Assembly: GCA_037043015.1 (NCBI GenBank)
Contig: CM073325.1
Span: 15,293,001-15,357,000 of the forward strand
Reading direction: 5' to 3'
From: Bryum argenteum
Lineage: Eukaryota > Streptophyta > Bryopsida > Bryales > Bryaceae
Length of the DNA stretch: 64,000 nt
The position numbers and the translations under genes are program-made. The notes below the pieces were generated by a model, which was not told the origin of the DNA, did no database searches, and was given only the letters and a program-made list of their open reading frames with translations. This document shows positions 5,321 to 42,494 of the stretch, piece by piece; the first letter of the stretch is position 1, and the number at the start of each line of letters is the position of its first letter.

Positions 5321-6527
5321 GCTTTATCGCTGTCTTTTTAAAATACTTATCGGTAAATTTCCGCTTTTAGAGGGGTTAGGGGCTCTGTGATTGGCTCATA
5401 GGGAATGGAAACTAACAAAAACGTATTCTATTAAAGTGTTAAGAGATATAGACATGACCAAATGATAATGACTTTCACCATGCATCGCCGAGGACGATAG
5501 ATTGAGTACGCCCGTGCAAAATTTTTGAAGCTTATTTGACTTTTAGAACCTTCATGTAGTTTATTTTTGAGAAAAGATATAAAAACAAGAATTTGACCGT
5601 CTTTAATTATTGTGAGAATGTGCATCTACAAGTTGACGAGTTTCGGCACAAAGTTTTTAAAAGAAATTCCTAAATCTTAAATTTTGACAAATTTTTATGA
5701 ACGAATTGGAAAATTACAAAAAACTATGAATTTAGCCTCGTTATATTTGACTTGTGTCGTTGCGAATTTTTCTAAAGCTTGAGTCACTTTGAAATCTAAT
5801 TAGGAATTTGATCATATAGAAATTCTAAAATAAATAAATAAATAAAATTTGAAAGTTTTAATTTTTTTGGGTTCGTTTTGGGCTTGAAAACTAAAATCTG
5901 CATTATAGAATTTAAATATTGGAGTTTAAAACCGCAATTTCTATAACAAGCACCTTGCAAATATAAGGAACATCTAGTGAATATATTGATCTTAACTACT
6001 TCATTTAGATTGCCCAAAATAGCATAAAGCCATTTTGGCTATCTTGGATCTGTAGGGGTTAATAGCATATCAATTCAGAATTGATAATGATGAGAATTTT
6101 GAATTATTTTTGAGTACCGATATAATCTGATATAACATTCTATACGACCTTACAACTCCAATTATATGATGCACATGATTTCTAACAAATCTATTACAAG
6201 ATTGTGCAATTGAAGTTCAAATATCTCACTTTCAATATCACTAATAATAGGGGTTAGGAAAAGAAGAGTGTTATTTTTCTCAAGAATAAGACTATAAAAA
6301 AGCAACTATTTCACAATTTGACAAGAACTTTGCAACCTATCTCTTATTTGCTAGTCATCAGAAGCTGAAATAAAACAGAAACCACTTCTAATTGCTATCA
6401 ATTCCGAAAAGGATTATAGAACTAAAGGAGTTAAAGAGGAGTTATATATCCAATATGTTTGATTTTGGAAATGAGCATTGACAAATCTTTGTCTTGTTGT
6501 AAGGTGTGCTTTATCTTGATTTTCTTT
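5321..6527. other. AT-rich stretch without a gene
   Basis: I see no exon, RNA gene or clear repeat beyond simple AT-rich sequence. It lies downstream of the HAD-fusion gene, which ends at 6806 on the minus strand, and may include its 3' flank. Confidence 0.4.
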
Positions 6528-6531
6528 TTAA

Positions 6532-6791
6532 CCCCTAACTCTCCTTAAAACCCAAAACGGGTTTTGGAGGTTCGCGCAAGAGAAAAACTCAGCCAACTTT
6601 GACCATTATAATCTCACAAATGAGGAAGAATGAACGGTTCATATTTGGTATGTGAAAAGAATGTCAGATGAACTTTGAGATCTTACGGTTGAATATTTTA
6701 AATAATGCTTGGATTGAGATTTTTTGAGCTTAATCTGAAGGAAGGTCAAATTTTGTGACTTAGACTGTTTTGCAACAAGGAGAGTTAGGGG
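6532..6791. mobile_element. TTAA-flanked MITE, family A copy 1
   Basis: This 260-bp element has perfect 15-bp terminal inverted repeats, CCCCTAACTCTCCTT at the left and its complement at the right. TTAA borders both ends (6528-6531 and 6792-6795). A TTAA duplication with CCC-initial termini is the signature of piggyBac-type transposition, so I infer mobilisation by such a transposase; none is encoded here. The element sits 14 bp beyond the stop codon of the HAD-fusion gene, so it is probably within that gene's 3' untranslated region. Confidence 0.8.
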
Positions 6792-6805
6792 TTAACAACT
6801 TATTT

Positions 6806-9800
6806 TTAAGAAGCAACAGGAATAGGAGGTGGGACTCCCGTTGAGGGGGTGGAATCATGACCCTGGGAACAAGCGTTCCCTGCACATGCCTCCTCGCCCA
6901 AGGCAATCCATAATGCAGAATCATGGTAATCTTGGATCAATACGGAAGCTCCATTGTCTCTCAACACCGGCCCCGGGTGCCCCGTGAGCAATCCTACGAC
7001 GGGTGACCCCGCCGCCCGTCCCGCCTTGATTCCCGACGGAGAATCCTACATTTCCATCAACTCTTATGTCAAATGTACATCTTTATGCTTAGATTGAGAT
7101 ATTTTACAAGCCCCTAACTTTCCTTAAAACCCAAAACGGGTTTTGGAGGTTCCCGCAGGAGAAAAAACTCAGCCAACTTTGACCATTATAATCTCACAAA
7201 TGAGGAAGAATGAACGGTTCAAATCTGGTATGTGGGAAGAATGTCAAGTGAACTTTGAGATCTTACGGTTGAATCTTTTGAAAAATGCTTAGATTGAGAT
7301 ATTTTGAACTTAATCTAAAGGAAGGTAAAATTTTGTGACTTAGACGGTTTTGCAACAAGGAAATTTAGGGGTTAAGAGTTTGAGTTGACGTGTTACCTCG
7401 AGGACAAAACATTGATTTGGTTCAACTCCAAGGAATTTGATGGCCTTCAAGTACGGATCGGGATACGGTTTAGGGTTGTCACATTCACTTCCCACCACAA
7501 CAATTTCAAAAAAGTCCGGAATTTTCAACGCTGCAATGACTTGCTCCGCATTTAATCTCGGAGAGTTTGTCACCGCGGCACGGCGTAGCCCGCGCTTAAT
7601 CACATACTTCGAAAATTCAAGGAACCCTGGTATGGGCTGGAGATCCTTTGCTGCTAGCCTGGTAAGGTAAGGACATTCCTACTTATTATTTTTAGATGCA
7701 TGTGCCATACAATGCTTTATTTGACTACATTACGACATATTAAGATTATTTGAATCAAAACTTTAATATGGTGAAACATCTTATATGCGGAGACTAACAT
7801 ATCCATGCAATGGGTATCCCCAATTGGCACAAATTTCATATTCAAGATGACATCAACCTACATTGATACATAATCCATTTTTGTCATGTGAAATCATGTG
7901 GGTGTATGCTAATTTGGATTTGAGATATTATTCCTAGTACTTTATGATATCTTTTCTCACAAACACACGATACTTTTTATGGAGATACCCTCGTAAGTAT
8001 CAAGAGTGGGTATTTGTGTCATTGAAGTACATACATTAAAACGTCTAGGAAATTGGATTTGTTGAGCGAGCTTACTTTCTATAGCGAGCTTCCTTTTCGT
8101 CCATCATAGCAATACGTTTTTTTTCCTCCATTTCGGGCATGAGTTCTTCGGCTATAACGTAGTTTAGCTTGCCACTCATTTGACGAATGAAAAACTCATG
8201 GCTGATGGGCACTCCACCATTGTATCCTTCCTGCATCCATATATCTGCACCCGTTTTATCATCATTCCACTTAGAAGCAAAATTACTCTTTGTACGAACT
8301 AATTATTTGGTCTTGCACAAGTAGAATTCAAGTAAATCGATTATTAGTTTAAGAAACTAACAAAAACTGACTTTTTAATCCCTAAAGATCCTTAAAACCC
8401 GAACAAAGTTCAGCCAACTTTGACTATTATTATTTTACAAATGAAGAAGAATCATTGGTTCAGATTTAGCATGCAGGTAGTATGTCAAGTTGACTTTAAG
8501 ATCGTATGGTTGGATCTTGTAGATAATATCTTAGATTGAATTTTTTTGGATCTTGAAGTAGAAGGAGTGTCTATTTTTGTTGGGTGAAGAATATACATAC
8601 CTCGGCAAGGACTTCTTGAAAGGCCAAGAAATGAATAGGATCAGAGTCAGCAATGGTGCCATCAATGTCAAACAAGATGGCCTTCAATTTATCACCCTGC
8701 GGAAGAGGCGAACACAATTTCTGATGCTCCTCCTGTTTGTGCACTGTTTCTGTAGGATGCTCACATGGCTTCAATGAGCCGCCTGGTTCTTGAGATTCTT
8801 GAGTTTCGGCCTTCTGCTCTGCAAAATCAACCTCTTCCTTTTATAGCTTGCTTGCTTCATTAACAACAAATCAAGTCTACTCAAATTATCATTGCATACA
8901 AGTCTTATGAATAAGGTACAGAAGTATGTTAGGAGCTTGTTGTATGTAGAACATTGTTGAGCTTTATTCCACTGACAAAGAGCTAGTTAACCAAACCAGA
9001 ACAATAATTCATGCCTTTGAGTTTTATTCTAGAACCCTAATTATGATTAGTAGTTGGAGCAAAGTGTGCACAAAATAATTTCAAGTGTAAATAAGTTACT
9101 GCACTAGTGGAAAGGTGGTGTGAGAAAAGTCATAGTGGTGTTTAAAGTGTTGCTGCCAATACCTGTTGTTGGGGTATTGGCATTACAAAGACTTTGATTC
9201 TCCAAGTTAAGGAGTGCACAAGAAGAGAGAGAAATTACCTGAGCGGGGCGAGCCTTTTGGGGAGTCTTTGTTGGGGTCAAAGAGAACCAAAGAGGTGTCT
9301 TTACCGCCATCACAAGTACCGGAGAGAGGATATTGCTCGCGATTTTCTTTCTTCACTTGAGGGCCTTCCAAGAGTGCAGGGCCATGGCATTTGCCATCAG
9401 TAACTAAACCAACATTGGTCGGGTCAGCAGCAGCAGCACCTGTGGGAAGCTTACATGATCCATCGGAGCAGTCTACAGGATTTGCGCTCTTGCAATCTGC
9501 AGGTTTACCTCCACTTTGTTTATTAGACTTGCATTGGCAGCTGGTGCCACACTTGCAACTCTCTTCATTGCATCCCTCGTCTCCTATATCACCACACTCC
9601 ACTACGTTATCAAAAAGAAGAAAAACAACAACATTGTACATATCAGCAATGTAGGACTAGTAATCCCCCAGGTCTTCAAAAACACACAATGGAGCACTCC
9701 TATTGGATCTAAAGACCGCATTTGGATAGGTTTAAGAAGACTCAAAGAGTGAGGTTTTTGTTTCTGTGCAATCTTTAGTAGAACAATCTAACTTCAATAT

Positions 9801-10557
9801 GCACAGATGCAGCAGTTGTACTCTACGTGAGGATTCCCCATATGGTTTTCTTTGAAGGTTTTGATAAATGCATGGGAGTTCAGAAATATTTAAAGCCTTC
9901 ATAGTAATTGTATTACATATTTATATGTGGGGATACTATGAGACAATAATATTTCAATGGACGCAATTTCACCGCCACTGAGACGTGAACATCTATCCTC
10001 TAGGAAACTAGATCAGCTCTTATGCTAGTGACAACCAAGTGTGACATTGTCGGTACGCGATTCGAAGCAAAGTATCAAATGAAAAGGATGCCTCAGATAG
10101 TGATAAATGATGATGCCACAATCAACAAGGGCTCCATGTTAGAGGAGCCCAAATACAGCAGCCTCACTGCCTCCCTCAAGCAAATAAAATGGACCTAGAG
10201 TTGTACAGATGATTGTCACTCATGGCGATGATGAATGCTGAGGAGCTGTAGGAAACCAATGCCCACCCCCCCTCCAAAACTGAAAAATACGGTTGGCTCT
10301 CTGATTCACATTGCTTACAACTTCCTAATGGTATTACCTGGGCACTCGCACTTCCCATCTACTGAAAGACACTGTTGAGTTGGTGAACCTGTAAAAGCGG
10401 ACTGTTGTACTGCTGGATTGATTGAAGGAACAGAAGTTCCTGCATTTGTAGGATCAGCTGAGGCAGCGAGCTCTAGAGTTGGTGCAGAAGCTGCAACAAC
10501 AGGCTGTTGAGTTGGGGGAGAAGCGGCAACGGCAGACTCATCGGTAGGGCTTGACAT
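6806..10557 (-). CDS. Metallothionein-like domain fused to HAD phosphatase
   Basis: Six exons (10338-10557, 9239-9601, 8601-8818, 8076-8230, 7397-7658, 6806-7045) have GT/AG borders and matching phases and join into 485 aa. Residues 1-195 are Ala/Pro/Thr-rich, then Cys-rich, with CxC and CxxxCxC spacing (DGKCECP, then ESCKCGTSCQC) like metallothionein. From about residue 240 a haloacid dehalogenase domain follows: nucleophile and acid/base Asp245 and Asp247 in DIDGT, motif II Thr349 in VTNS, motif III Lys382 in NPKPYPDPY, and motif IV Glu406-Asp407 split across the last intron. A cap region lies between motifs I and II. The HAD part resembles the plant SGPP/GPP sugar-phosphate phosphatases, so dephosphorylation of small phospho-sugars is likely. 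Metal binding by the N-terminus is inferred. MITEs lie in two introns and just after the stop. No targeting peptide is obvious. The HAD identity is firm; the fusion rests on splice phase. Confidence 0.82.
7111..7371. mobile_element. TTAA MITE, family A copy 2 (intronic)
   Basis: This is a 261-bp relative of copy 1, in the last intron of the HAD-fusion gene. The right border is TTAA (7372-7375) but the left border reads CAAG, so one side of the target duplication is mutated or was replaced. The 30 bases before it resemble an internal part of the same family, which suggests a nested or recombined insertion. Confidence 0.7.
8379..8585. mobile_element. TTAA MITE, family A copy 3 (truncated)
   Basis: A family A copy in intron 3 of the HAD-fusion gene. 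The left end is preceded by TTAA (8375-8378) and reads TCCCTAAAGATCCTT. The internal landmarks CAGCCAACTTTGAC and GGTTGGATCTT are present. The right terminus is lost near the exon 3 donor. Confidence 0.6.
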
Positions 10558-12037
10558 TTTGTTACTCGCAATCTGCAATAAGCTCAAACTGCAGTTTGCC
10601 AAACACACCCCTGTTCGCACATTTCAGACCTTGCTAGAAAATCCTTACATACCCATACCTCAAACCCGTGCATAACAAACAAAGACGAAGGGTATCACGA
10701 AGAGAAAGCAGTAAATCAAACAGAATCCATAGTACTGCATTATGATCACAATGGCAGCAAACGAATAAGCAGGAAGCATGAAATGAGCATCTCAAATAAA
10801 TCAGTAGATTAGCACGGCCTGTGTCGGTATTATCCAGAAAATGCGCTCTGTTTCATGTAGCAATCTTGACTCTCTCTCATGTATTAGGTCGACGAGCAAG
10901 CTTTCGAGTCCCATTCAAAAATGGTTATGAACAGCAATCATGTGAGCATTTGACCCGAATGCTCACGGGGACCACTCTTTGAATGAGAGAGGATTCAAAA
11001 GAAAGGAACAGGAGAATGCTTACGATCTGAAGAAAGTCGGTTGAAAAATGGTTGGAAGTGCGAACAATACCACGAGATTTTCTCCCTGCAATTCGTGCAT
11101 TGAAAGGGGCAGTGCTGCGTGTGTTGAATATAAGGAGGAGCGTTTACTGCTGTGAAGGTGGCCCGTTGAATCTGAAAGGCGCCCATTGACAGAGCGGTGC
11201 CCTGTAACCGCTGCTTCTGGTTCCGGTGACCATTCGCTTGGAAACCTATCACCGCTGGTAGGAGTCCATCCATCACATTGACCATTGTACCGTATATACG
11301 CTGCCTAAGATTCAAAGTATATGATAATTGTACACACATCATTCAACTGATTGTTATAGAATCAACACTTCTCAGAAGATGTTGCCTCCGCCGTAGTAGG
11401 GCAGCACAAGCTAACACTATACCCTCAGAACATACAAAGTGTACTCAGAATGAGCCAGCTACTCCAAAATAGCTCATGTTAACGAAACTCAGACTTGATA
11501 CACAGAAAACGATCGGGTGAAAGACCTTCTCGCGGTAAGAAAGGTGCAGAACATAAAAGTTGGTCTTTGAAACGAGACAACTCTTTTGTTCATTTATTTG
11601 CAAAATTTTAGTGTATAAGTAACGCTAACGATTTTCGCAAGATATAATTACAAAGGCATAGGACGCGATAAGTAAAAAATGAGAAGCAATGAGACCAGTT
11701 GAATGAATGACATATCCAGATTAAACGCCTCGGAAGCAACACCTTCACCAAAAGCCCGCAATAACATCGTAAACCTGTGGAGATGCCAAGAATGCATGCG
11801 AAAATCCACCAAATCCTTACGCGTTTCTGCGTTTCAATTTCCAGTAACTCTATTAGAAACCCGGAGAAAGAGAATCGCAGCTACATACCAGTAAGATTTG
11901 TACAATCCGCTCCAAAACCCTGATCCTCTGCAATTGCCCAAGGCTCTAGCGCATCAATGCGGTCCCGAGAGGAAATGGAGAACATTATTTGTTGCAGGAG
12001 CAACCTAAAGAGGAGAAATTCTAGCTATGTAAAGAGG
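10558..12037. other. Spacer: 5' flank of HAD fusion, 3' flank of ESSS
   Basis: Both neighbours are transcribed leftward, so this stretch should hold the promoter and 5' leader of the HAD-fusion gene and the 3' end of the ESSS gene. A 115-codon minus-strand frame at 10995-11342 shows no motif and could be leader sequence. I see no RNA gene. Confidence 0.4.
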
Positions 12038-12361
12038 CTATTCCTCTGCCTCATCGTCGGCAGCGGCCAATCGTTCGAGCGCCTGTTTGTGCGCCCAGGT
12101 CTCGATACGAGTGTCGGGCTTGGCGGAGAGGCCGACGGTGAGCATGAGCGTGGCCAGAACGCCGGTCAAGTAGTAGGGCGCCTCCCAATCCTCCCACTTG
12201 CGCTTCTGGCCGGGGGCAAGAGGCGTCTCTCCGAACAAGACGCCATTGGGACCTTCCTGCGTGCCTGGCGCGAACCAACTTCCTCCGCCTCCACTGCTGC
12301 CCCGCTGCCGCTGCATCTGCAGCACCCTCCGCACTAGCCCGCCTCCTCGCGCCATCGCCAT
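12038..12361 (-). CDS. Complex I ESSS-type subunit (NDUFB11-like), 107 aa
   Basis: This single-exon gene encodes an accessory subunit of mitochondrial NADH:ubiquinone oxidoreductase. The plant ESSS signature is clear: an aromatic segment (KWEDWEAPYYLTG), a single membrane helix (VLATLMLTVGL), then LSAKPDTRIETWAHKQALE and an acidic tail. I prefer the start at 12361 (MAMARGGG), which gives about the usual family length and an Arg-rich N-terminus suited to mitochondrial import. An in-frame ATG at 12409 would add 16 residues. The protein is expected in the membrane arm of complex I. A Ser/Gly-rich linker (residues about 22-28) sits before the conserved part. The family call is firm, the start less so. 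Confidence 0.85.
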   Translation of the reverse strand: MAMARGGGLVRRVLQMQRQRGSSGGGGSWFAPGTQEGPNGVLFGETPLAPGQKRKWEDWEAPYYLTGVLATLMLTVGLSAKPDTRIETWAHKQALERLAAADDEAEE

Positions 12362-12409
12362 GCCTCGAGCTCTGTCAATCAATCGATGGAGAATGCCAAC
12401 AATGGGCAA

Positions 12410-12879
12410 AGCGAGCGTGCACCAAACCCTAATTTCCTCTCTGTTCCGTATAGTCTACAGGGTTCGAAGACAAGAGCCCTCTATTGGCGCTCACTCTCTA
12501 CTTGCACATGTAAAAGGTATCTAGAAGACCATCCATAAATTGGAAGGAGAAGAAGAACTCTAGAACAATTTTGAGGTGGGCGTGAATTGAGCGCTCATTC
12601 AACCTATATTTGGATGTATATTCAAATGTTATAGTACCAATGGTGGGAGTAGTAAACCCTCTCGGGCTGAAAATTGCGCTAGTTCCTACTTAGCCACTAG
12701 AACGGTAGATATGAGAGAGGGCTATTTCCAGAGAGGACTTTATAGTATTTATACAAGGTTCAAGAAAAACTTCCTACCATAATTGGGTGAACTATGGTGG
12801 TGAGTTAAAGAAATGCAAGAAAGACCCGTTCTCTGTCTAGTTAAAGGGTTGCAAAGGGGCCAAAAGTGCAGAAAGGGTA
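12410..12879. other. Promoter-side flank of ESSS gene
   Basis: No gene is seen. This is the upstream side of the leftward ESSS gene and should contain its leader and promoter. The local open frames on the plus strand are antisense overlaps. Confidence 0.35.
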
Positions 12880-19812: not shown

Positions 19813-21943
19813 CTAAGCTTCCACATGTTGTGTGGGTGGCGGAGTCAAAATGGTCTGTTGAGTGCGTTCAGGGTGGTGTAATTTCTCTACATCAGTTTCA
19901 AAGTGGGGTTTCACTTCTGAAGCTGGAACAGGGTTTAACAAAACATCTGGTGCAGGTTTTGTTTTGTCTTCATGCCCAGGTGAATGGGGCCTTGGATGCT
20001 CCTTGTGATAAAACTTGTCGTCTACCACATTGAAGGCCTCAGCAGTGCGAACTTCCTGGCATAATGAGCACAGGCTACAGAAAAACCACTGCGTACAATC
20101 TGTCATGTTTGGCTGCCCGCAGCACCATGTACTTCCAGGTAGATGAAACCTCTTTCTTATCTGAATCCTCCAGTAGCCTCCGTAGAGTAATCCGAACACA
20201 CAGAGCACTATGCCGGATCCTCCTAGAGCTTTCTGAATAGTGCTGAAATCACAAACAAACACATCAAGTCAATACTAAAGATTCAATGCAAATGCTCTGA
20301 TCTGAAATTAAAGTACTTGGGATGAAAAACCAGAACTATCATATCATTTGTACGGCAAGATTTAGAAAAACAAAACGAGCAACTGATAATTGCTATCCAG
20401 AAATGAGACATCCACAACAGGAGATGCGGAGCACCAACTAGCAGATAACTTCTTCAAATTGCAATATCAAACTAAACGTGATAACATCAAAGCATTAAAA
20501 GGTGGACCAGCAAAGCAATTCATCCAGATAAGTTCCTGGAAGACAGTTGTTTGACGAATACATTGCAAGCAGACTGCACAGATGGTACCGAAAAGAAGCG
20601 TGGTACCTGTTATCTATGTTGAGTGCAGCAATGACGAAGACCAGGAAGGGGGCAAAGATGAGCAGTAGGAATGTGACAATATGGACATAACGGTTGCCGA
20701 ATCCAAGTCTCTCAAGGTTGTATCCCAGTACACATGAGAAGCAACTGGCAGTAATGCAGGTGATCTTGGGAGTTTCGAAACAGCTACAGAGATCTCCTTG
20801 CCATTGAGGATCGTCAACCAATTTCCCCTCCCTCGAAGCAAACGTCATTCCTCGTTCAAGAAGCCGATACTTCCTCGGTAAATGAAACAGTGTAGGCTGA
20901 CTCTTCACTTCTCCTCTCTCAGCCCGACTACTGGCAGCTTCAGCAGCTTCGTCAATATCACTTTCCGGTACGAAGTCTTTCCCGAGGGGGCTGAGACTGT
21001 TGTAAATTCCTGCGGCACATGCCGCACCTAAGGCCACTACTAAGCAGAGTGCTACAGCATAGAATGGCCGATCTGCTCTCCTGTATCCCCAGTTCAATCC
21101 AGCGAGTGCAAATGTACCATAACAATTCAGGTGCAGGAGAAGAACCACCACAAGCATGTGCGACCACTCATGTGGCTTTCGCATGCCTTTCTTGCAATAA
21201 ACTGCTCGAAGCTTCAGGATATCCTCCGGTCTCCAACGTAACAACCACACAAGATGTATAACTCGTGTTGGGAACACATACAATACCATGAGGACGAAGA
21301 GTGCATTAATGACTTGATTGGAGACTTCAAACCATATGTCTCGGTCGGACTTCTTCGGAAGGACTTTGTTTAGCATGCCCACCAGAACCATGAAAAGAAT
21401 GGCGCCAGAGACGATGACTCCAATCAACCAGAAAGAGAGAGCAATGTTCTTGGGGTTACGCAGCCAGTCTTTCGCCCAGTCCTTCAAAGTTCCTAACGTC
21501 ACTTCACCTATGAATGGTAGAGTCATACTTCTGCTCCGGAGAGGGTGTTCTTTTGGTGTAGGAGTCATTGCTGAAATTTCCTCCCTCTCCATTTGTATTC
21601 TTGCCAACGTTTTTGATGGAGACAAAGCTGCGCCCATGGGTTTAACGAGTCGGGGTGGAATCGCCATCCCTCCTGGTGGCACGTTGCCGATTCCAACGTT
21701 GATCCCTGCCGGTGTTGTTGCTGAAGTATAATCCCCTGAGCCATTCTCTGCAACTAATTCTCCTCTGTTTGTAGGACTCCGGATAGGAGTGCGAAGCTCC
21801 TCTTGTCTTGGAGACCGAATCTCTTCCTGTTTTGGAGAGCGAAACTCCTCCTGTCTTGGAGAGCGAACCATGTCCTGTCTTGGAGAGCCTCTGACCTCAC
21901 CATTACCATTCGCACCATGAGCTTCTTCCCCGGCGCCAGCCAT
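19813..21943 (-). CDS. PLAC8/DUF2985 multi-pass membrane protein, 588 aa
   Basis: Two exons (20607-21943 and 19813-20242) join in phase. The product starts with a charged, disordered region carrying four or five near-repeats of RSPRQEE (residues about 19-55). A basic stretch follows, then the DUF2985 region with several hydrophobic helices (about 165-335). The PLAC8 domain comes last, with Cys-rich motifs on both sides of the intron: LCSCFETPKITC and, after two membrane helices, CCGQPNMTDCTQWFFCSLC. The tail is Pro/His/Lys-rich and cytosolic-looking. Plant relatives are integral membrane proteins, mostly of unknown role; some PLAC8 proteins influence cell size or divalent cation handling, but I do not assign either. 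SPRQ sites in the N-terminus could be phosphorylated by proline-directed kinases. Confidence 0.88.
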
Positions 21944-22738
21944 CGCTAAACTACTTACTGGCTTCGGCAGTGCGAATGATAGGTAGGTCTAGCTTTCACT
22001 ACGGTACAACAGTACCACAATCCGGAGAAGTACAGTCCCTCATCTTAACTCCGACACACTTGAACTGCAACAGCTGCATCATACAATACTGAACTCAGAC
22101 GGCGACTCAAAACTGCAACGATCACGATCAGAATCTCAGGCTTCTACGTACCAATAGCTGACATAGCAAACTCCACTCGATCAAAAACGCTCCCGCCAAT
22201 CAAGAAACCTCTGCTCCGTGATCATACAACTAATACGATACTCGCCTACGATTGAATACTGAAACTCTCAATCTAGTAGGCAGAATCGAAAACTTCACAA
22301 GACATGCCCATCGTCCGCAAACTAGAGCCACGACAAGTAACACAGCTGGAGCCGACGAGGGGACAAGTGCCACTAGGATTCACCCCGCGCAAACGAAGGC
22401 TACAGTGATGCTGACAGGAATATCTAAAATAGTGATGGGTTATAAGATAGCTAAGATCCCGTTTGTCCACGGGAGTGCTCTAGGGTTCCATTCAAAGGTG
22501 GGATAGGATCGATCGACAGAGTGACGTAGTTGAAATGAGAAGTGACTGTTGAGTGCGAGAGAGTTACGCGAACGGAAGCTATGATAGAGAGATGGGTAAA
22601 TGGGTTGTAGACTCTAGAGTTCCAGATGTGCGAAGGAAAGTGCTAATCATCGAGGAGGGTGGCGATGGCGGACATGTGGAATGTGCCGTCCCGCGCGAAG
22701 CGCGACACCTGGGGGATCCAGGGATGTCGGCGAGGCCA
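21944..22738. other. Upstream region of PLAC8 gene
   Basis: No gene is seen. It should hold the promoter and leader of the leftward PLAC8/DUF2985 gene. Several short open frames on both strands lack motifs. Confidence 0.4.
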
Positions 22739-28093: not shown

Positions 28094-31000
28094 CTAGTTT
28101 TGCCAACGGTTCCACCAGTTCACACGTTTGGCAACATCACCGGTCTGGATTTCGTCCACGGTTGCTGCAATTGTCCGTGCTGCTTTTCGCTGAAACCTCA
28201 ATGCTTGGGCCATGGCGTTGCGCTGAAGTGAGCCCTTCCTCTTTGGTTCCTTCTCCTGTTAAAAAGAAATGCAAATCGAAACAATAAGCTTCCGTAATGG
28301 TAGCATACAAAACCATTGCTGGCCATTCAATACAAGCGTATTGAGCATGAAGGAAGATGAGAATAGTACCCGCATGTCTTGTAATTGAGCCTCAGTAAAA
28401 CCTCCCACGCTCTTAGTTCCAGACTTGGCCATGAGTGACGTCACCCAGTCAAAGCCTTCATTCTCTACTTGTGCACCACGCGCCAAACGAAGTCTCAACT
28501 GTTGCATAAAAGAGAGTCCAAGTATTCCAGCTGTATCGAAGTAAGGGTGTGCAAGTGCAGCATTTGCACTTATCCGTTTGCGGCCTTTAAACCGCACCAT
28601 GTCTTTTACAAGCTCCCATCCCACACCTCCATCCATATCCAAAATCTCAAACCCCTGCCTAATATCCTTATTCTCCTTAGCCTCTACTAAGTTCCGCCAT
28701 TGCACCATGTTGTACTCTTGGCGTTTCAGCTGCCGGTTGAAGGAAATAAGGCCGCTATCATTGCGAAGATTCGGAAAGGCCATTTGTAAGAAGATCAAAC
28801 CCAGGCTGTAAATATCAAATCTATCTGGAAGATTCATCTGCCAAAGAACAGGAGAAAGTGCAGCTGCTATTATAGGAGGAGGGGCAGAGGGTGTTTGGGT
28901 GCTCATAATGTACTGCTCTGGGGCTGCGTATCTAGGATCTAATAAAAACTCTTTCGGAATATAGTTTATTCCCACTCTCAAATCCGCTGCAGCTCCCAAA
29001 TCAATAATCTTGAAAGTCTTTGTCTCTGCAAGAGAGATCCAAGTAAGAAAACAAGTGATAACATTCTCAAAACGTAGGTTGCTTTCTCGGCCCAGTAGAT
29101 AGTCAGAGAAAGCATTGATAGTAACTCGCAAATTATGAATAGTGGTAGATTGAGGAAGAACAGAAAGATCAGGTTAAGATACCTTCTGAAAATATGATGT
29201 TCTGAGGTTTAATATCACGATGTACAATCCCAGTTGAGTGCAGCTGGGCAAGTGCGGTCAAAATCTGTTTCATGATCGTCCGCAGAATCCTGCTCTGACG
29301 TTCAGGGCCCCGGGGCATATCGTCCGCCTTTCCTGACCCAAGAATCATACCCTCTACATTGTAAGGGAAATCCCTGTTAGACATCAGGTCAGCCAAAGTT
29401 GCTTTCCCTTCGAACCTCCATAACAACCAAAACTCCTCCTTTCCCTTGGGTGAAGTATCGTCAAGAAATCCAGAAACGAAATCTGCACAACTCCTGCGAC
29501 ATGCGCGACGTACACGCTCATTCATCCAAGCCTCCACGGCTCCATACTCATTCGCTTTCTTCACCACCAACGGACCGTCCTTCTTCAGTAGTTGCTTGTT
29601 AGCCAAAGATGCCATGTACACAGTGCCGAATGCACCTTCCCCTAGCTTCTTTCCAAGACTAACATCATCCTTCCGGAACTTAGGACGAAAGAGATTCTCT
29701 AAGGGGGTAAGCACAAACATGTCCCAGAAGCCCGGTGCAACTCCTGCAAAAGATTGAGCTCCGTAAATATTAGCGCCTACAACACAGAATCTGATCTGAA
29801 ATAGAAAATTGAATCATATCTTCACTGTTACAATCCAGACTCGAAGGGTTCATGAATAAGGCCTACTAGCTCAACGTCCCCTCACTGATGCGGTTAAGAC
29901 AAACTTGTTATCTGGTTCGGAGCAGCATATCCAGATATTTACAAATATTCACATGAAATGTAACTATGCTATGAACCTCTAATAAAGGAGATTAAATGGT
30001 ATTCCACCCTCCAGAAACTCCCAACCTCAAGCAGACAGGTCTTCCTCTGATTAAGTGACTTTAATACGGACTTGAACCTGATCAACGTTTGTATGACGTC
30101 ATTACCACCACTGCACCAATGAAAGCAGCAAAGCTACAAAAGTTATATTCACTAAAAATTCCAAAACATCAGGCCCGTAACACATAATCTTAAGAAACTG
30201 AATAAAAAATGGCAATGACCACTGCAGTCGAAATATATTGCCTCTACATACATGCGATGCTCAAGAGGGGACTTCAGCCACTACACTACAATTTGTTCGT
30301 CATCAAGATACCAGCTTGCCGTTTCAATAATATAGTAAGCGCTCATTCCAGGTACAGTCCACAAATTGGCGAAAGAATCAGATACAATCAATCAGTTTGA
30401 TGAGCTCCGCCATCAAATAAGATTCACTCTAATTGATTGCAAACTCTATTAGTGAGACTCCACAAGAAAGTGAAACTTTCGTGCTGCAAAATTACAATAG
30501 AACTTATCTACCAGCACACTCCGTCAATTCTAATATTTCAATATACAATAGTTGAACTACACTTCCAAGATGGAGCTGAAATACCTTCCCTAAATTATTC
30601 TCGCAAGAGCGTCCTAAAACTTATGCTATCTATTTTCACATTTCTGATCACAAGAATCTAATCGCAAGAAAAGAGTACTACAATACAATACAAATCAAAA
30701 TGGATTCATAACTGTTCCAAAGCTCCAATTCAGTACCGCTTCTCACTATTCGAATCCAAGAAGCTAAGATAAAAAACAATCACTACTACAATGTGTCCGT
30801 AGCTGGCTGAATTCCGCTATCTCACTGCACAATGAAGCAAAAAATATCATCGCAACAAAAATTGATTCAACTGACCTGGCGTCGACCAGAGGTACGCAAC
30901 GATGAGCACCGTCAATGCGACACCAGGGGCAGTAATTTGGAATCCCTGCCGTGGCAAGGTACTCCGATATACAACATCACCGCATTCCATGACGGTGCAC

Positions 31001-35409: not shown

Positions 35410-38400
35410 ATGGACATATTTATATTCAACCAATATCTTGCACCAGTTTGAAAGTTCTAAACTTACTTCAATCTCTTTTGTAGACAATCAATACATTATG
35501 ATGAGGCATTTAGATCCTCACATTGTAGCAGCAACCATCTTGTTATACCTTAAAGAACTCGATGGATTCCTTTTCACATATTCATTGCACAATAATTTTG
35601 TTGCATCTGCAGGTTAAGTGCTTTTTTTAAACAGATATTTATAAACCTGAAGTCTAAAAGCAACATGACCCTTATCTATCTTGTCACTACTAATACTTTT
35701 ATCTAATTATCATACTAATATAAATGAGTCAATTTTTGTTATGGTCATTGATTGATTTTCGATGAAATGTCTAAATATATATTCTACAATAAGCTTTTAT
35801 CATTTTTACAATCCTTGTACATGTTTATTGAAATATTCAAATCTTGTTGGTGTATATCAGCAATTTCAAAACCACAAGCGCGAGCATATGTACTTCGTAT
35901 ATTACTACACCGCCTTCCACCATCAAACTTTGCATTGCTAAAAAATCTTATATACCTATTTTCCTGTGCTAGTTCTACAGAAAATAATACCAAGTCCTAT
36001 ACCTCACAACTTATCGATATCTTGGGCCCTCTTCTATTGAGAAGATCCCACAATGATGACTCGTATTATAGGTAACATAATTTTTTCTCTAAAAATCACA
36101 AATCTTTTATTGATCTCTCGAATTATATTCCATATCATAAAGCATTATCATATTAAAAATGATCATTGTTAACAATAAGTATATTCAACCCGACAACGTA
36201 CAATTTGCAATCTTATCAACCTCAATTTGATCTTATAGGAAATTACCTTTCATTCAAGTATCAAGAGCAATAGCATCAACTCTAATAGACCAATGGAGTT
36301 TTTTATTTGGATTAAATCACATGCTACAAAAAGATGTTCTTCTACTCAAAATGTCAAAATTTTCATCAAGTCTTAGTTGTGGTACTGTACGTACTATACA
36401 TGTTGGAAAATATTGGATTGTATAGATTATTTAACCAAAATTTAGAGTGTTAGAGTTGATAAAATTGATGAGCAAAGAGACGTATATCTAATATAAAGGT
36501 TAAATATTTCGGTCTGATTTTTTTACAAAAATATCACTTGAGTAAAATATTGTCATTCTTATAATTATGATAAACTATCTCAAATTCGCAGAATTGTTTG
36601 AATGAGTGTCACCTCAAGAAGGAATACGAGTATTTCAATGATAAACCAAAATTTCAAGATAAGCCCTCATCAATCTTGAAGACTATCGAAAAATCCAAGT
36701 TTTTCAAAAGAGATGTTTGCAAAAGCAAAGATGATCAAATGTATATGCCAAAGCTATGCATTCTTCAAGATTACACAAGTATCCAAAAAAAAGGTAAGCA
36801 TATGTGTAGACTGTTGACTTCTATGTTCATAAGCATAAGAAGCCCAAGAATAATATGAGCCCCTATTTTAATTGGTCATAATATAAAATTGTTTGAGACT
36901 TTGAGAGGTTCTCCGTACATTGTTTTTGTATTATAAAAATTGATTCTCAAACATCTATCTCAAAGTCATATTACTAAATACTAGTGTTTTAATGATATAT
37001 TGACACAGTAAATAATATACAAGATTTTGTAATGCAGTTTTCTTATAGATATCAAATATGAACCTAAAGAAATCTGCAAATCATCTCAACACTTGGAATA
37101 CATGAAAAACAATCAAGAAGTAAACATATTGTGTTATTTTGATGAACATTCTCTTAAAAGTGATGAAGGCATCAAAGAAAAAGATAAGATTCTCCATGCA
37201 CATCACATCAATAACAATTGTTCAACAAGGAATCCAAAAGAAAATGAGACTACTATGAACAACTCAAATACTTTTAGCTCGAACGAAAATGGATGTGATA
37301 GTGAGATCAATTGTTTTATGCCAAACTATTGGAAGCATCAATTTGATGTGCAAGATGAATTCAACTTTGGAGAATGTCACATTGAGAAGAAAATTTGCTC
37401 CAATCTACCAAGCGTAAGTAAAAGCAATATCATATGTACCAGAAGTGGTACATCAAAATCGTTCGTTAATCAGAATTCTCAACTTACACACACTTTGCAA
37501 CCCCATTTATATACGTTATCTCCGAGGAATATGAATATACATAACTCATATAGGTATGAATCAGAACGATACTCAAAACAATCAACCAGAAGTTGGAAGC
37601 ATCGACAAAGGTTTTTACATGATTATTTGAAAGTTAAGAACTTATGTGAATGCAGATCCAAAACACTGATTAATACAAATAAGAAAAAAATACAACGACT
37701 TTCAAGCCACCTCACTAGAGAACATACAGACTTGCTCAATAAATCTTATGATAAGATTTATAAGAAAGAAGCAACAACATATGGAACAAATTTTCATTGC
37801 CACAAAAACATAAGAAGTTCAACAATAGTAAAGGGTTTTACTAGGTCTACTGCCTTGGGTTTTAAACATCACTCTCGAATGGCAAAATTTGCTTCATTTG
37901 CATACTTATTTACTAGGTATTCAAAAAGTAAATATGGAAAACATTGTATCAAGGGCCTGCATGAAATAAAAATAAATGAAGAACAAAAGAAAGACAATGT
38001 TATAGATATTTTAGCTTCAAACGTCAATTTTATTGGTAAAAATCAACACATGCAAGGCAATGTTGCAATCATCAGTGAGAACCAATATTGTACATTAGCA
38101 AGACATGACTCAATAGAGAATGATGAGGTTGATGAGGTTGATGTATTCAAACAATTTCCTATCATAGAAACCACATGTGGAAAAGATAAAACGTTGGTAA
38201 CAATACCACCATCACAAAAACAAGTTGGTTTCTTTGTAAAACCACTAATTGACAACAACCACTTTTATGTTACAAAAGATTTCACTACATCCATGAATGC
38301 AGAGTGTCAAAATGGTGCATATTGCACGTATGTAGAACATGAGGACAACAAGCCTCTTGAAAAAGAAAAGATTAGAATATTTTCAATTATGAATGAAAAT

Positions 38401-41400
38401 ACAATAAATGAGAGTTTAATGACTTCGATAAATTCCAGTCAATTAATTTTGGGGATAAATAATGAGAAATTAATAGAAGATGCTCAAGAAGATAATTTTT
38501 GGATGAAGAACGATTATTTGAATTTGAAAGAAACCAAAAAATCGATAAAAGACAATGATCTAACATCTTATACAAATAAGAGTGAAAATAATATAGCATC
38601 AAATATTCTATCTTCACTTATCAAGGATACAATTTGTGCAACTCAACATGTGCAACACATGAGGCGTCCTTACACATCTTCATATCCTATTAATAGTACT
38701 CAAGATGCACCATTGTCCATCATAAAACATTGCAACCAAATAAACATCATTCGTAATAAAAAGTCTCAAGCAAACACTGAAGAAAGTAATAGGAACAATA
38801 TCAAAAAGTGCTTGAACGCCAATGATGATGAAATTCTACAAGATGTCGATGGTTCAAAGAATGATAATGATTCATCATCACTGAATACAATATTCATTGA
38901 TGAAGCATCTATTAAGGCGACGGAAGCAGTTGAATCTAGATTGAATTTTAATACTGATACATCAACAACTATGTTGAAAGACGAGGAAAATGAGAATTCT
39001 TTGAGATCATCAACTTGCATACCACCTCCTCTTCCACCTCCTCCACATAAGCCAAGTCCTCCTCCACCACCACCTCCACCTCCGCCACCTCCAGCATCCA
39101 TATCGTCCTCCCCAACTTCACAATCACATTTTTTATTACAACCGGTTTTATCCTCATCGCACCTTTCTACCCTTGATCCCCCCGATTCACATTTGCCTAC
39201 ATCAACTAAATTAAGCCCATCATTATCATCTCATACGATTTCACATTCAAATTCTAATTGTTCAATTCCACCATCTCCACCTCCTCCACCACCGCCACCA
39301 TGTACGCGTAAACGTATAGTATTATCATGGAAACCTCCATCATCTATTCAATGCCGAATCCAATCATTCAATGAACCACACTTAGACTCGCCTCCACCCC
39401 CGCCCCCGTCTACAGCACCGCCTCCGCCTCCTTCTCTCCCGCCACCACCGCCACCACCACCACCCCCTCCTCCAACTCCACCTCCGCCTCCACCTCTTAA
39501 ACAATCACTAAAAAATAAACTGAAAATCAATTTAGATATCACCAAATCTGATCCTATCGCACCTCCAATACCAAAATCTAAAGACCCTATAACCACAAGT
39601 GCCATAAAAAAACCAAAACTTAAACAACTAATATGGGACAAAATAACTACAACACCAACCCATAAAACAGTATGGTCTAATACAACATTGGAAAATGTGA
39701 AGATGGATCTTAAAGAACTAGAATCTCTTTTTGCCCTCAATGAATTAAGTCCAAGAAATATTCCAAAGAAGGTTTTACAATCCAGTCTCTTTGCATTTAG
39801 TGTCATCATATTTTGTAGTTTTCCAAAAAGAATAGAAATATAAGTTCCTACTATGATAAGTAAAAGTTTATTTAAGATGTGCATGTGGTCTGACCATATG
39901 AAATTTGAATGAAAGTAGGAAAAGACTCCAAGAACCCAAAAACCAAAAGTAGTTAGTATATTGGATTTAAAACGTGCTCACAATGTAAGTATACAACTAC
40001 GAAGTTTGCGCATATCACTGCCAAAACTTTTAGAAGCCCTCCAAGTTGTTGATTACACTATATTGACTTCGGAGGTTCTAATGGTCGTGTTCAACACATT
40101 ACCAAATGAAGATGATACAAAATTATTAAAAAATTATACTGGAGATACAACTTCATTAGCAGAAATTGAAAAGTAAGGATGTTCCTTCTGGATAGAGAAA
40201 TATCTCTTACTTCAAGAGTATTTAGTATAATTCTCATATTATGTTATTTAGAGGAATATAATCATATAAGTTGCATATATATAAACATTCTATTGTGTTT
40301 GTTTATGCACTTTGAAAGTACTAAAAACCTCATAATATAAACTCAAAATAGGTATTATTTGGAACTATTGAAGATTTCTAGGTATACAAATAGAATAAAG
40401 TCTTTAATATTCAAACAACAATATAAGACAACATATGAACAGGTTCATTTCACTAAATCAATCACATGCTTTTATAAAACAATCAATGCAAGCATAATTG
40501 GAATATTCAATCTATTATTTTCATATTTGAGGATTCAATATCATAATTTTATACTTGCATTCATATCTTTGCCCAATATAAATTTCAACTAGAAGCTTAT
40601 TTTCATTGAGCATCATTAATTGATAGGAATCAATAGTTCATGAATATTGTACTCAAGATATATTTTGTACTTTGAGATAAACTTAAACATAGCAAAGCTA
40701 ACTAGTTAGATTTGTATTGATGTTATTACAATTACATTACTTGTTTGATCTTTGACATAAAAGGTTGGTATTGTAGACTCAACAAGATTTGGAATTACTA
40801 AACAAAGCATGTGATGAATTAAAATCCAGCCAAAGTCTAGTCAAAATCTTAGAAATGGTTTTAGTCATAGGCAATCATTTAAATGGAGGATCATTCCGTG
40901 GAGCAGCAAGAGGTTTTAAGCTTAATGCGCTCTTAAAACTAATGGATGTTAAAGGTCGGCAAAAAAACACAACATTGCTTCATTTTGTTGTTACAGAGTT
41001 GCTGAAGACTGACGAACAAGTAAGAAAAAATGCATTGAGATATATTTATGATCTGCGTATACAATTGTGTATATTATTGTGTAGGTATGTGTTATTCAAG
41101 AGAAAGTTGGTTGTGTATATGACGTCTAGATAAAAATTTATGTCACATGTAAAATCAATTGTCTTTGTTATGATTGTGATTTTCAGGTTGGAAAGTTATC
41201 GGAGGAAATGAAAGAAGTAAAATTGGTAGCAAATTTGAGCCTTGATAGAATTCATATAAATTTAAAAGACCTTGAATCTGGGATAGAATTTGTCAATAAA
41301 GAGATACTAGAAATGCAAGCATGTAAAGAAATGAACTTTCTTGAAACAATGCTTCCATTCGCGAATGCATCAAAGACTGAATTTGGTAAGTTACAAATAT

Positions 41401-42494
41401 TGGCAAGAATGACTTTGGATAAATTGAAAGACGTAGCCGTATACTTTGGTGAACCTATTAAAGAAGATCGGCAAACTGACCTATTTAAGACGATGCGAGA
41501 ATTTCTATTTATGTTTGATTGTGTGTGCAATGAAATAAAAAACACCAAGAAGCGCAAAGATGATGTAGCTTCAAAGAATCATCTAGAGCAAAGGTTTGCA
41601 ACATTTAGTTGTTTGTTAAGATGTGCGCTTGCCTTCTTTTCATCAATTTACTAATCATTAGTAAGCATGAGGTTGATGTATCAGATGTTATCTGGAGATT
41701 TTTGTATTCCAACATTTGATAATCTGTGAACTTGTAAATGTCAATAAAAGGTCAAAAAGCTTCATAATATTGAAAAAAGATTCTCCACCAATTTCAAATG
41801 AAGAAACTAAGAAAACCCCATTGTTTCAAATTGAGAAAAGAAAGGAACGAAGCATGTTGCAACATTTAGGTAAACAATTTCTATGAACATACTACATCGT
41901 GAGAGTTTAGATTGAAAAAACCAACTACACTTCCTTTTAGAACTTTACACTCTAGGTTTGTAACTTCCTAACTTTTTTATATGTTAAAATATCTTCTTAC
42001 TGTGTATAACATGTGAAATAGATACAAGCAACCAAAAAAATTGGTATGTTAAAACAGTAATTTCATAACAAAAAGATAAAGTATAAAGTTGAACAACTCT
42101 TGATGTTAGACATGTAGAGAAAAAATTCAAGAGTATATACACATTTTATTATGATGTTATATTGTATATCGAATTCCAAAAAAATGCAAATTGACAACCA
42201 TAATGGACTACAGCGATGATTTTTACATAATCAAAAGATTCAAAAACACATGCATTATGTATACAAAACTTGCTACTATGTTGTTAACAAACTTAAATTC
42301 TTTCAATGGCAGAAAGACCTGAAAGTGCACAAGAAGAGAGAAGACCAAGCAGTGCATTCAAGTTCACCCCTCCAAGGACCAATACATCCTCGCCTACAAG
42401 CATAGGTATAGTAACAAGGGCCCGTGAAAAATTACTCCAAAGTATCAGAAATCAATCAGAATACTACGACCCTAGTTGGGCCACCAACCAATAA
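34898..42494 (+). CDS. RhoGAP-like/FH1/FH2 formin (class III type), 1648 aa
   Basis: Thirteen exons join in phase: 34898-34997, 35085-35222, 35484-35612, 35861-36071, 36239-36386, 36592-36793, 37049-39771, 39919-40172, 40352-40442, 40777-41019, 41187-41593, 41751-41869, 42313-42494. Residues about 20-250 resemble RhoGAP (TATKVRNL; DPHIVAATILLYLKEL; LHRLPPSNFALL; GPLLLRR). An Asn/Ser/Lys-rich linker (about 310-965) has no domain I recognise. FH1 (about 968-1128) holds several polyproline runs for profilin-actin delivery. FH2 (about 1165-1545) starts LKQLIWDKI and includes VLDLKRAHN, GNHLNGGSFRGAARGFKL and YFGE, so actin nucleation and barbed-end binding are expected. The RhoGAP part appears to lack the arginine finger, which suggests Rho/ROP binding without GAP activity. 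This architecture is known from moss and lycophyte class III formins. The exact N-terminus is the least certain part. Confidence 0.88.
35384..35410. repeat. (TA)n microsatellite in formin intron
   Basis: About 13 TA units lie in the intron between the second and third formin exons. Confidence 0.9.

Follow-up and report, generated by a model that had tools for sequence, protein, structure and literature searches.

Does one gene of the moss Bryum argenteum join a Cys-rich, metallothionein-like segment to a complete HAD phosphatase, and what would such a segment do there? Metallothioneins are regarded as free-standing metal buffers. The locus occupies positions 6806-10557 of the window, the 64,000-nucleotide stretch of DNA that was analysed (C5:15293001-15357000), and it was compared with the moss's own genome, which comprises 258.8 Mb in 25 contigs, with family libraries and with published work. 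The introns, the SGPP-like relatives and the short two-exon metallothioneins described below are in keeping with a land plant.

Six minus-strand exons can be joined in frame, giving a predicted protein of 485 aa that ends at a TAA stop codon (Table 1). All five introns have GT-AG borders, and the junction phases, derived from the exon lengths, are 1, 1, 0, 2 and 0. If exon 4 used an alternative acceptor 12 nt further upstream, the protein would have 489 aa instead. The equivalent exon is 155 nt long in a paralog on contig C3, which corresponds to the 485-aa version, and 158 nt in a second paralog on contig C2.

The coding character of the exons was scored by codon usage. For training, five open frames outside this gene supplied 1216 codons; four of them lie in the window (three match Pfam families, the frame at 12041-12454 only weakly) and one in the C2 paralog locus (L007). 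In all six exons the predicted frame ranked first among the six possible frames. Exon 1 scored +6.4, above all 208 segments of the same length taken from this gene's introns (maximum -2.1), and exon 2 scored +8.2, above all 194 such segments (maximum -10.2). A chance open frame was rejected on this scoring. Exon 6 has a score of -6.3, below zero though still the best of its six frames, and the 125-nt linker that opens exon 3, before the HAD domain, ranks second only. The original prediction had described six exons with good splice borders and matched phases, a segment with about 14 Cys and a complete HAD domain with all four catalytic motifs. All three descriptions are confirmed, with 14 Cys and three CxC counted in residues 1-194.

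Table 1. Features of the phosphatase locus, its repeats and the C2 paralog (window positions, except where locus L007 is named).
Feature	Position	Strand	Basis or remark
Exon 1: ATG, Pro/Ala/Ser/Thr-rich leader, end ..CLSVDGKCECP, donor phase 1	10338..10557	-	220 nt; codon score rank 1/6
Exon 2: Cys-rich, 363 nt = 121 codons, phase 1-1, skippable in frame	9239..9601	-	splice model, codon score
Metallothionein-like cluster GCNEESCKCGTSCQCK, residues 83-98	9528..9575	-	own-genome metallothionein profile; pattern search
Exon 3: linker and HAD motif I (DIDGT), without in-frame ATG	8601..8818	-	splice model, motif reading
Exon 4: cap region, motif 5 MSGKL	8076..8230	-	splice model, paralog comparison
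Exon 5: HAD motifs II (VTNSP) and III (NPKPYPDP), 262 nt	7397..7658	-	splice model, paralog comparison
Exon 6: HAD motif IV (LEDSPSG), C-terminal tail, stop TAA	6806..7045	-	splice model, paralog comparison
MITE-like repeat copy inside intron 5, outside the protein	7107..7375	.	repeat comparison
MITE-like repeat copy just past the stop codon	6528-6795		terminal inverted repeats TTAACCCCTAACTCTCCTT / AAGGAGAGTTAGGGGTTAA
MITE-like repeat copy in intron 3, more diverged	8371-8527		repeat comparison
C2 paralog (SGPP-like), leader exon then HAD exons	L007 4372-4534 and 5111-6954		start codon uncertain

As for the phosphatase half, the four catalytic motifs (DxD, T/S, K and ED) are present as DIDGT, VTNSP, NPKPYPDP and LEDSPSG, which start at residues 245, 348, 380 and 405. 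Pfam HAD_2 matches residues 242-424 (E 1.4e-29), and NCBIfam HAD-SF-IA-v3 reaches 58.3 bits against a cut-off of 29.4. A sequence search of the PDB returned 58 distinct sequences, with a phosphorylated-carbohydrate phosphatase (TM_1254), inorganic pyrophosphatases and beta-phosphoglucomutases at the top. This half reads as a sugar-phosphate phosphatase of HAD subfamily I and of the SGPP type, a provisional group placement that leans on family background and on motif 5 of the cap.

Motif 5 is MSGKL in the window protein and ISGKH in both paralogs. In AtSgpp of Arabidopsis the same motif is IAGKH and is reported to be involved in substrate choice (PMC6956230), and because of this difference the substrate range of the moss protein may not be the same. 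AtSgpp (At2g38740) is described as a phosphosugar phosphatase of HAD subfamily I with a C1 cap, 244 aa long and with 3 introns (PMC3607736). It shares the four HAD motifs with the window protein, and both have three introns within the HAD part, without shared positions being implied. In contrast, the window protein has 485 aa, and a Cys-rich part is not mentioned for AtSgpp in the sections consulted. By analogy with AtSgpp, Mg-dependent chemistry is expected for the window protein.

The N-terminal half, termed here the Cys-rich tail, has low complexity and is rich in Ser, Pro, Ala, Gly and Thr. This composition suggests a flexible tail; by charge-hydropathy, however, it sits just past the dividing line, towards folded proteins (0.440 vs 0.430). 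Pfam and NCBIfam gave no family for it, and neither the tail nor its core, used as queries, matched anything in the own genome except this locus. Exons 1 and 2 share a weak ADPTN-G stretch, with 17 of 2000 shuffles scoring as high. When the tail was shuffled 200000 times, its three CxC were near chance (p 0.055), unlike CxCxxxCxC (p 0.003) and the rare CKCGxxCxC (p 2e-5), all for patterns picked after viewing the sequence.

The likeness to metallothioneins lies in residues 83-98, which follow the N-terminal cluster of plant metallothioneins, GCxxxxCxCGxxCxC, also found in those of the own genome. A genome-wide DNA search with the pattern CKCGxxCxC gave 9 matches, and the reversed pattern, used as a control, gave 0. 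Four of the matches share a single identical sequence; the remainder are the present exon, three exons of metallothioneins and a place on C10 around which no metallothionein was seen. This pattern search, together with a protein search (6 matches, E up to 10), supplied the set of own-genome metallothioneins (C7:9509535-9510000, C7:12723940, C4:996881 and C6:5575900), all but one of which were read as separate exons. The metallothionein match at C6:5575900 (L040, L043) and another at C6:5608823 lie 33 kb apart with equal score and identity, perhaps after a recent duplication.

A profile of the N-terminal cluster was built from four own-genome metallothioneins (two on C7, one on C4 and one on C6) and searched against 4532 records, made up of the tail, 1000 shuffles of the tail and 3531 open frames obtained by six-frame translation of the window and of six loci. 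The tail obtained a full score of 29.3, with 24.3 bits for the domain at residues 83-98, while the best shuffle reached 21.2 and 0 of 1000 came as high; such scores count only comparatively because the null2 correction was off. The only records above the best shuffle were the tail, the frame of its exon and eight frames of metallothionein exons, among them the profile's own members. A profile of the second cluster gave the tail 20.5, on the same comparative scale, and 1 of 1000 shuffles was as high (22.5), thus a second, C-terminal cluster is not supported. In the pairwise alignment with exon 2, a 44-aa metallothionein joined by hand from the own genome aligned over 41 columns with a score of 91, which was reached by 0 of 2000 shuffles and by 6 of 2000 shuffles with the Cys fixed.

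Other features set the tail apart from this metallothionein, which has 13 Cys (29.5%) in two dense clusters, a phase-2 intron between the clusters and no enzyme domain. Metallothioneins have a size limit of about 10 kDa; the predicted protein has 485 aa and its Cys-rich part alone 194 aa, of which 7.2% are Cys. The tail has no match to the Pfam metallothionein families, which says little because two own metallothionein sequences, one whole and one N-terminal part, also fall under the cut-offs. A complete metallothionein domain in the tail was rejected on its Cys content and on the unsupported second cluster. The simple capture of a metallothionein exon was also rejected, given that the metallothionein carries a phase-2 intron whereas exon 2 is a phase 1-1 exon without it. 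The tail therefore reads as a low-complexity stretch with one metallothionein-like motif, not as a whole metallothionein. The name "metallothionein-like" in the original prediction applies to a cluster of 16 residues and goes too far for the segment as a whole, in terms of its 7% Cys, its Pfam result and its second cluster.

A search of the own genome with the HAD part found at least 14 places, namely four exons each of the window gene, the C3 paralog (L006, from 29149664) and the C2 paralog (L007, from 16071110), plus two single places on C6 and C8 with 26% identity. Over the HAD columns, the window protein is identical to the C3 paralog at 117/218 (54%) and to the C2 paralog at 104/218 (48%). 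The two paralogs agree with each other at 159/218, and because they are closer to each other than to the window protein, it is the window gene that has diverged from the group. The three genes do not differ in their HAD intron phases; every equivalent of exon 5 has 262 nt, and the leader is joined in phase 1 in each case.

Apart from motif 5, the paralogs differ from the window gene in their leaders. The C3 leader exon has 22 nt, encodes 7 aa and ends in phase 1. The C2 leader exon, as modelled, has 163 nt (about 54 aa, phase 1) and may resemble a transit peptide; an in-frame ATG inside the HAD exon of this paralog is another possible start. No CxC cluster is found in either leader. At this position the window gene has two exons, exon 1 and exon 2, and at the other end its exon 6 extends the C-terminus by about 30 aa relative to the paralogs. 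Because both SGPP-like paralogs carry other leaders, the Cys-rich part would be a leader added to one paralog, and the simplest history that we infer is that leader exons were exchanged, or grew, at a phase-1 intron.

In terms of its surroundings, the gene is accompanied by three copies of a repeat unit of about 265 bp. A genome search with this repeat gave at least 40 places with 93-100% identity, the query included (40 of 2046 first-look candidates were scored), and the repeat probably represents a numerous, young MITE-like family. No tandem repeats were found in 5500-12500, no match was returned by a plasmid search of the locus, and Rfam gave 0 matches over the whole window. Elsewhere in the window, a possible formin gene lies at 37033-41651 (+), where a 936-aa polyproline frame, which has no Pfam match, precedes an FH2 match at 41130-41651. 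Two protein-kinase frames at 28262-29813 (-) match Pfam Pkinase, one slightly under the cut-off, and may resemble the thylakoid STN kinases. Finally, a DUF2985 frame (20498-21988) and a PLAC8 frame (19816-20268) on the minus strand, within 19816-21988, are perhaps one gene; one abstract links PLAC8 proteins to cadmium resistance in plants (PMC12467093).

Whether the tail and the phosphatase belong to one protein can be judged from the possible start sites. The stop-to-stop frame around HAD motif I (8840-8571) contains no Met, therefore the phosphatase requires an upstream exon. Introns 1 and 2 were scanned for alternative leaders using a short set of strong donor hexamers of our own choice. 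Of the 12 ATGs in intron 1 and 7 in intron 2, none reads into a phase-1 donor on this short list, and no strong replacement leader was seen in these introns, though 4 and 2 of them, respectively, reach some phase-1 GT. Since exon 3 has no in-frame ATG and no strong replacement leader was seen, the simplest view is that exon 3 is spliced to the Cys-rich exons, and a single transcript of exons 1-6 is favoured as the best reading. The intron 1 ATG at 9641 continues in frame straight into exon 2, and a possible transcript starting there, without exon 1, would again encode cluster and phosphatase in one product. We consider it improbable that there are two transcription units or alternative transcripts, with exons 1-2 giving a small Cys-rich protein and the phosphatase using another leader. 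Exon 2 left unspliced would indeed soon meet a stop, about 10 residues beyond 9239 (..NFSLFLCTP), and the metallothioneins that were found are encoded apart from the two SGPP-like paralogs, but this arrangement has to face the missing ATG before motif I, the want of a strong phase-1 leader in introns 1-2 and a fitting phase-1 donor at the end of exon 2. An error in the gene model, with exons 1-2 non-coding and an unrecognised exon (upstream of exon 1, or non-consensus in intron 2) as the true leader, appears highly improbable. The exon model is a prediction from the DNA sequence, and the C3 leader shows that 22 nt can suffice; exons 1 and 2, however, outscore every sampled segment of this gene's introns and their phases fit. 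The claim that both parts lie in one protein thus stands as the best reading, with the phase-1 leader junction of the paralogs on its side. The original prediction had also stated that relatives in which the two parts are always encoded apart would refute the fusion, and within the own genome the result leans partly that way, with both SGPP-like paralogs found lacking the Cys-rich part and true metallothioneins encoded by separate genes.

Taking exons 1-6 as one gene, we give roughly an even chance to the explanation that it encodes an SGPP-type phosphatase whose short leader was replaced by the two exons of the Cys-rich tail, with an effect of metal or redox state on the phosphatase. The thiolate cluster would be formed by residues 83-98, with C70, C72 and C76 nearby. 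Such a tail would bind Zn, Cu or Cd as soft metal ions or become oxidised, and in its loaded or oxidised form it could alter how active or stable the attached phosphatase is, or where it is located. Since exon 2 has 121 codons, is phase 1-1 and is frame-neutral, a removable module is possible: when it is skipped, the frame is kept and the product has 364 aa, and skipping in the living moss may produce one form that has the cluster and another that lacks it. Cys-rich or redox parts also occur in other HAD-fold enzymes, such as P1B metal ATPases and SOQ1. They offer a functional analogy only, as a metal- or redox-sensitive part on a HAD fold, and they differ in their families and parts, with no homology to the window protein claimed. 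A serious competing explanation, though a less likely one, accepts the fusion and takes the tail for a fast-evolving, low-complexity extension without metal function on a plain SGPP phosphatase, with CKCGxxCxC present by chance or as a vestige. It agrees with the low Cys content, the near-chance number of CxC, the unsupported second cluster and the Ser/Pro/Ala/Gly/Thr-rich composition. What it explains poorly is the exact cluster, which is improbable from composition, even if its pattern was chosen afterwards, and which ranks with metallothionein exons in the profile search.

A metallothionein-phosphatase fusion is not described in the open-licence PMC literature among the matches listed, as far as titles and the starts of abstracts tell. 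In a broader proposal, which we put forward as speculative and expect rather not to hold, the cluster would be derived from a metallothionein and act as a built-in metal or redox switch that splicing can remove, and the SGPP genes of this genome would swap leader exons at one phase-1 intron and so change their targeting and control. If true, one set of catalytic exons combined with different leaders in three SGPP-like genes would make a clean case of leader-exon exchange. An enzyme with a metallothionein-like cluster in cis would likewise be a simple example of a metabolic phosphatase that responds to metal or redox state, and in this moss the heavy-metal or oxidative state would be tied directly to the balance of sugar phosphates and Pi.
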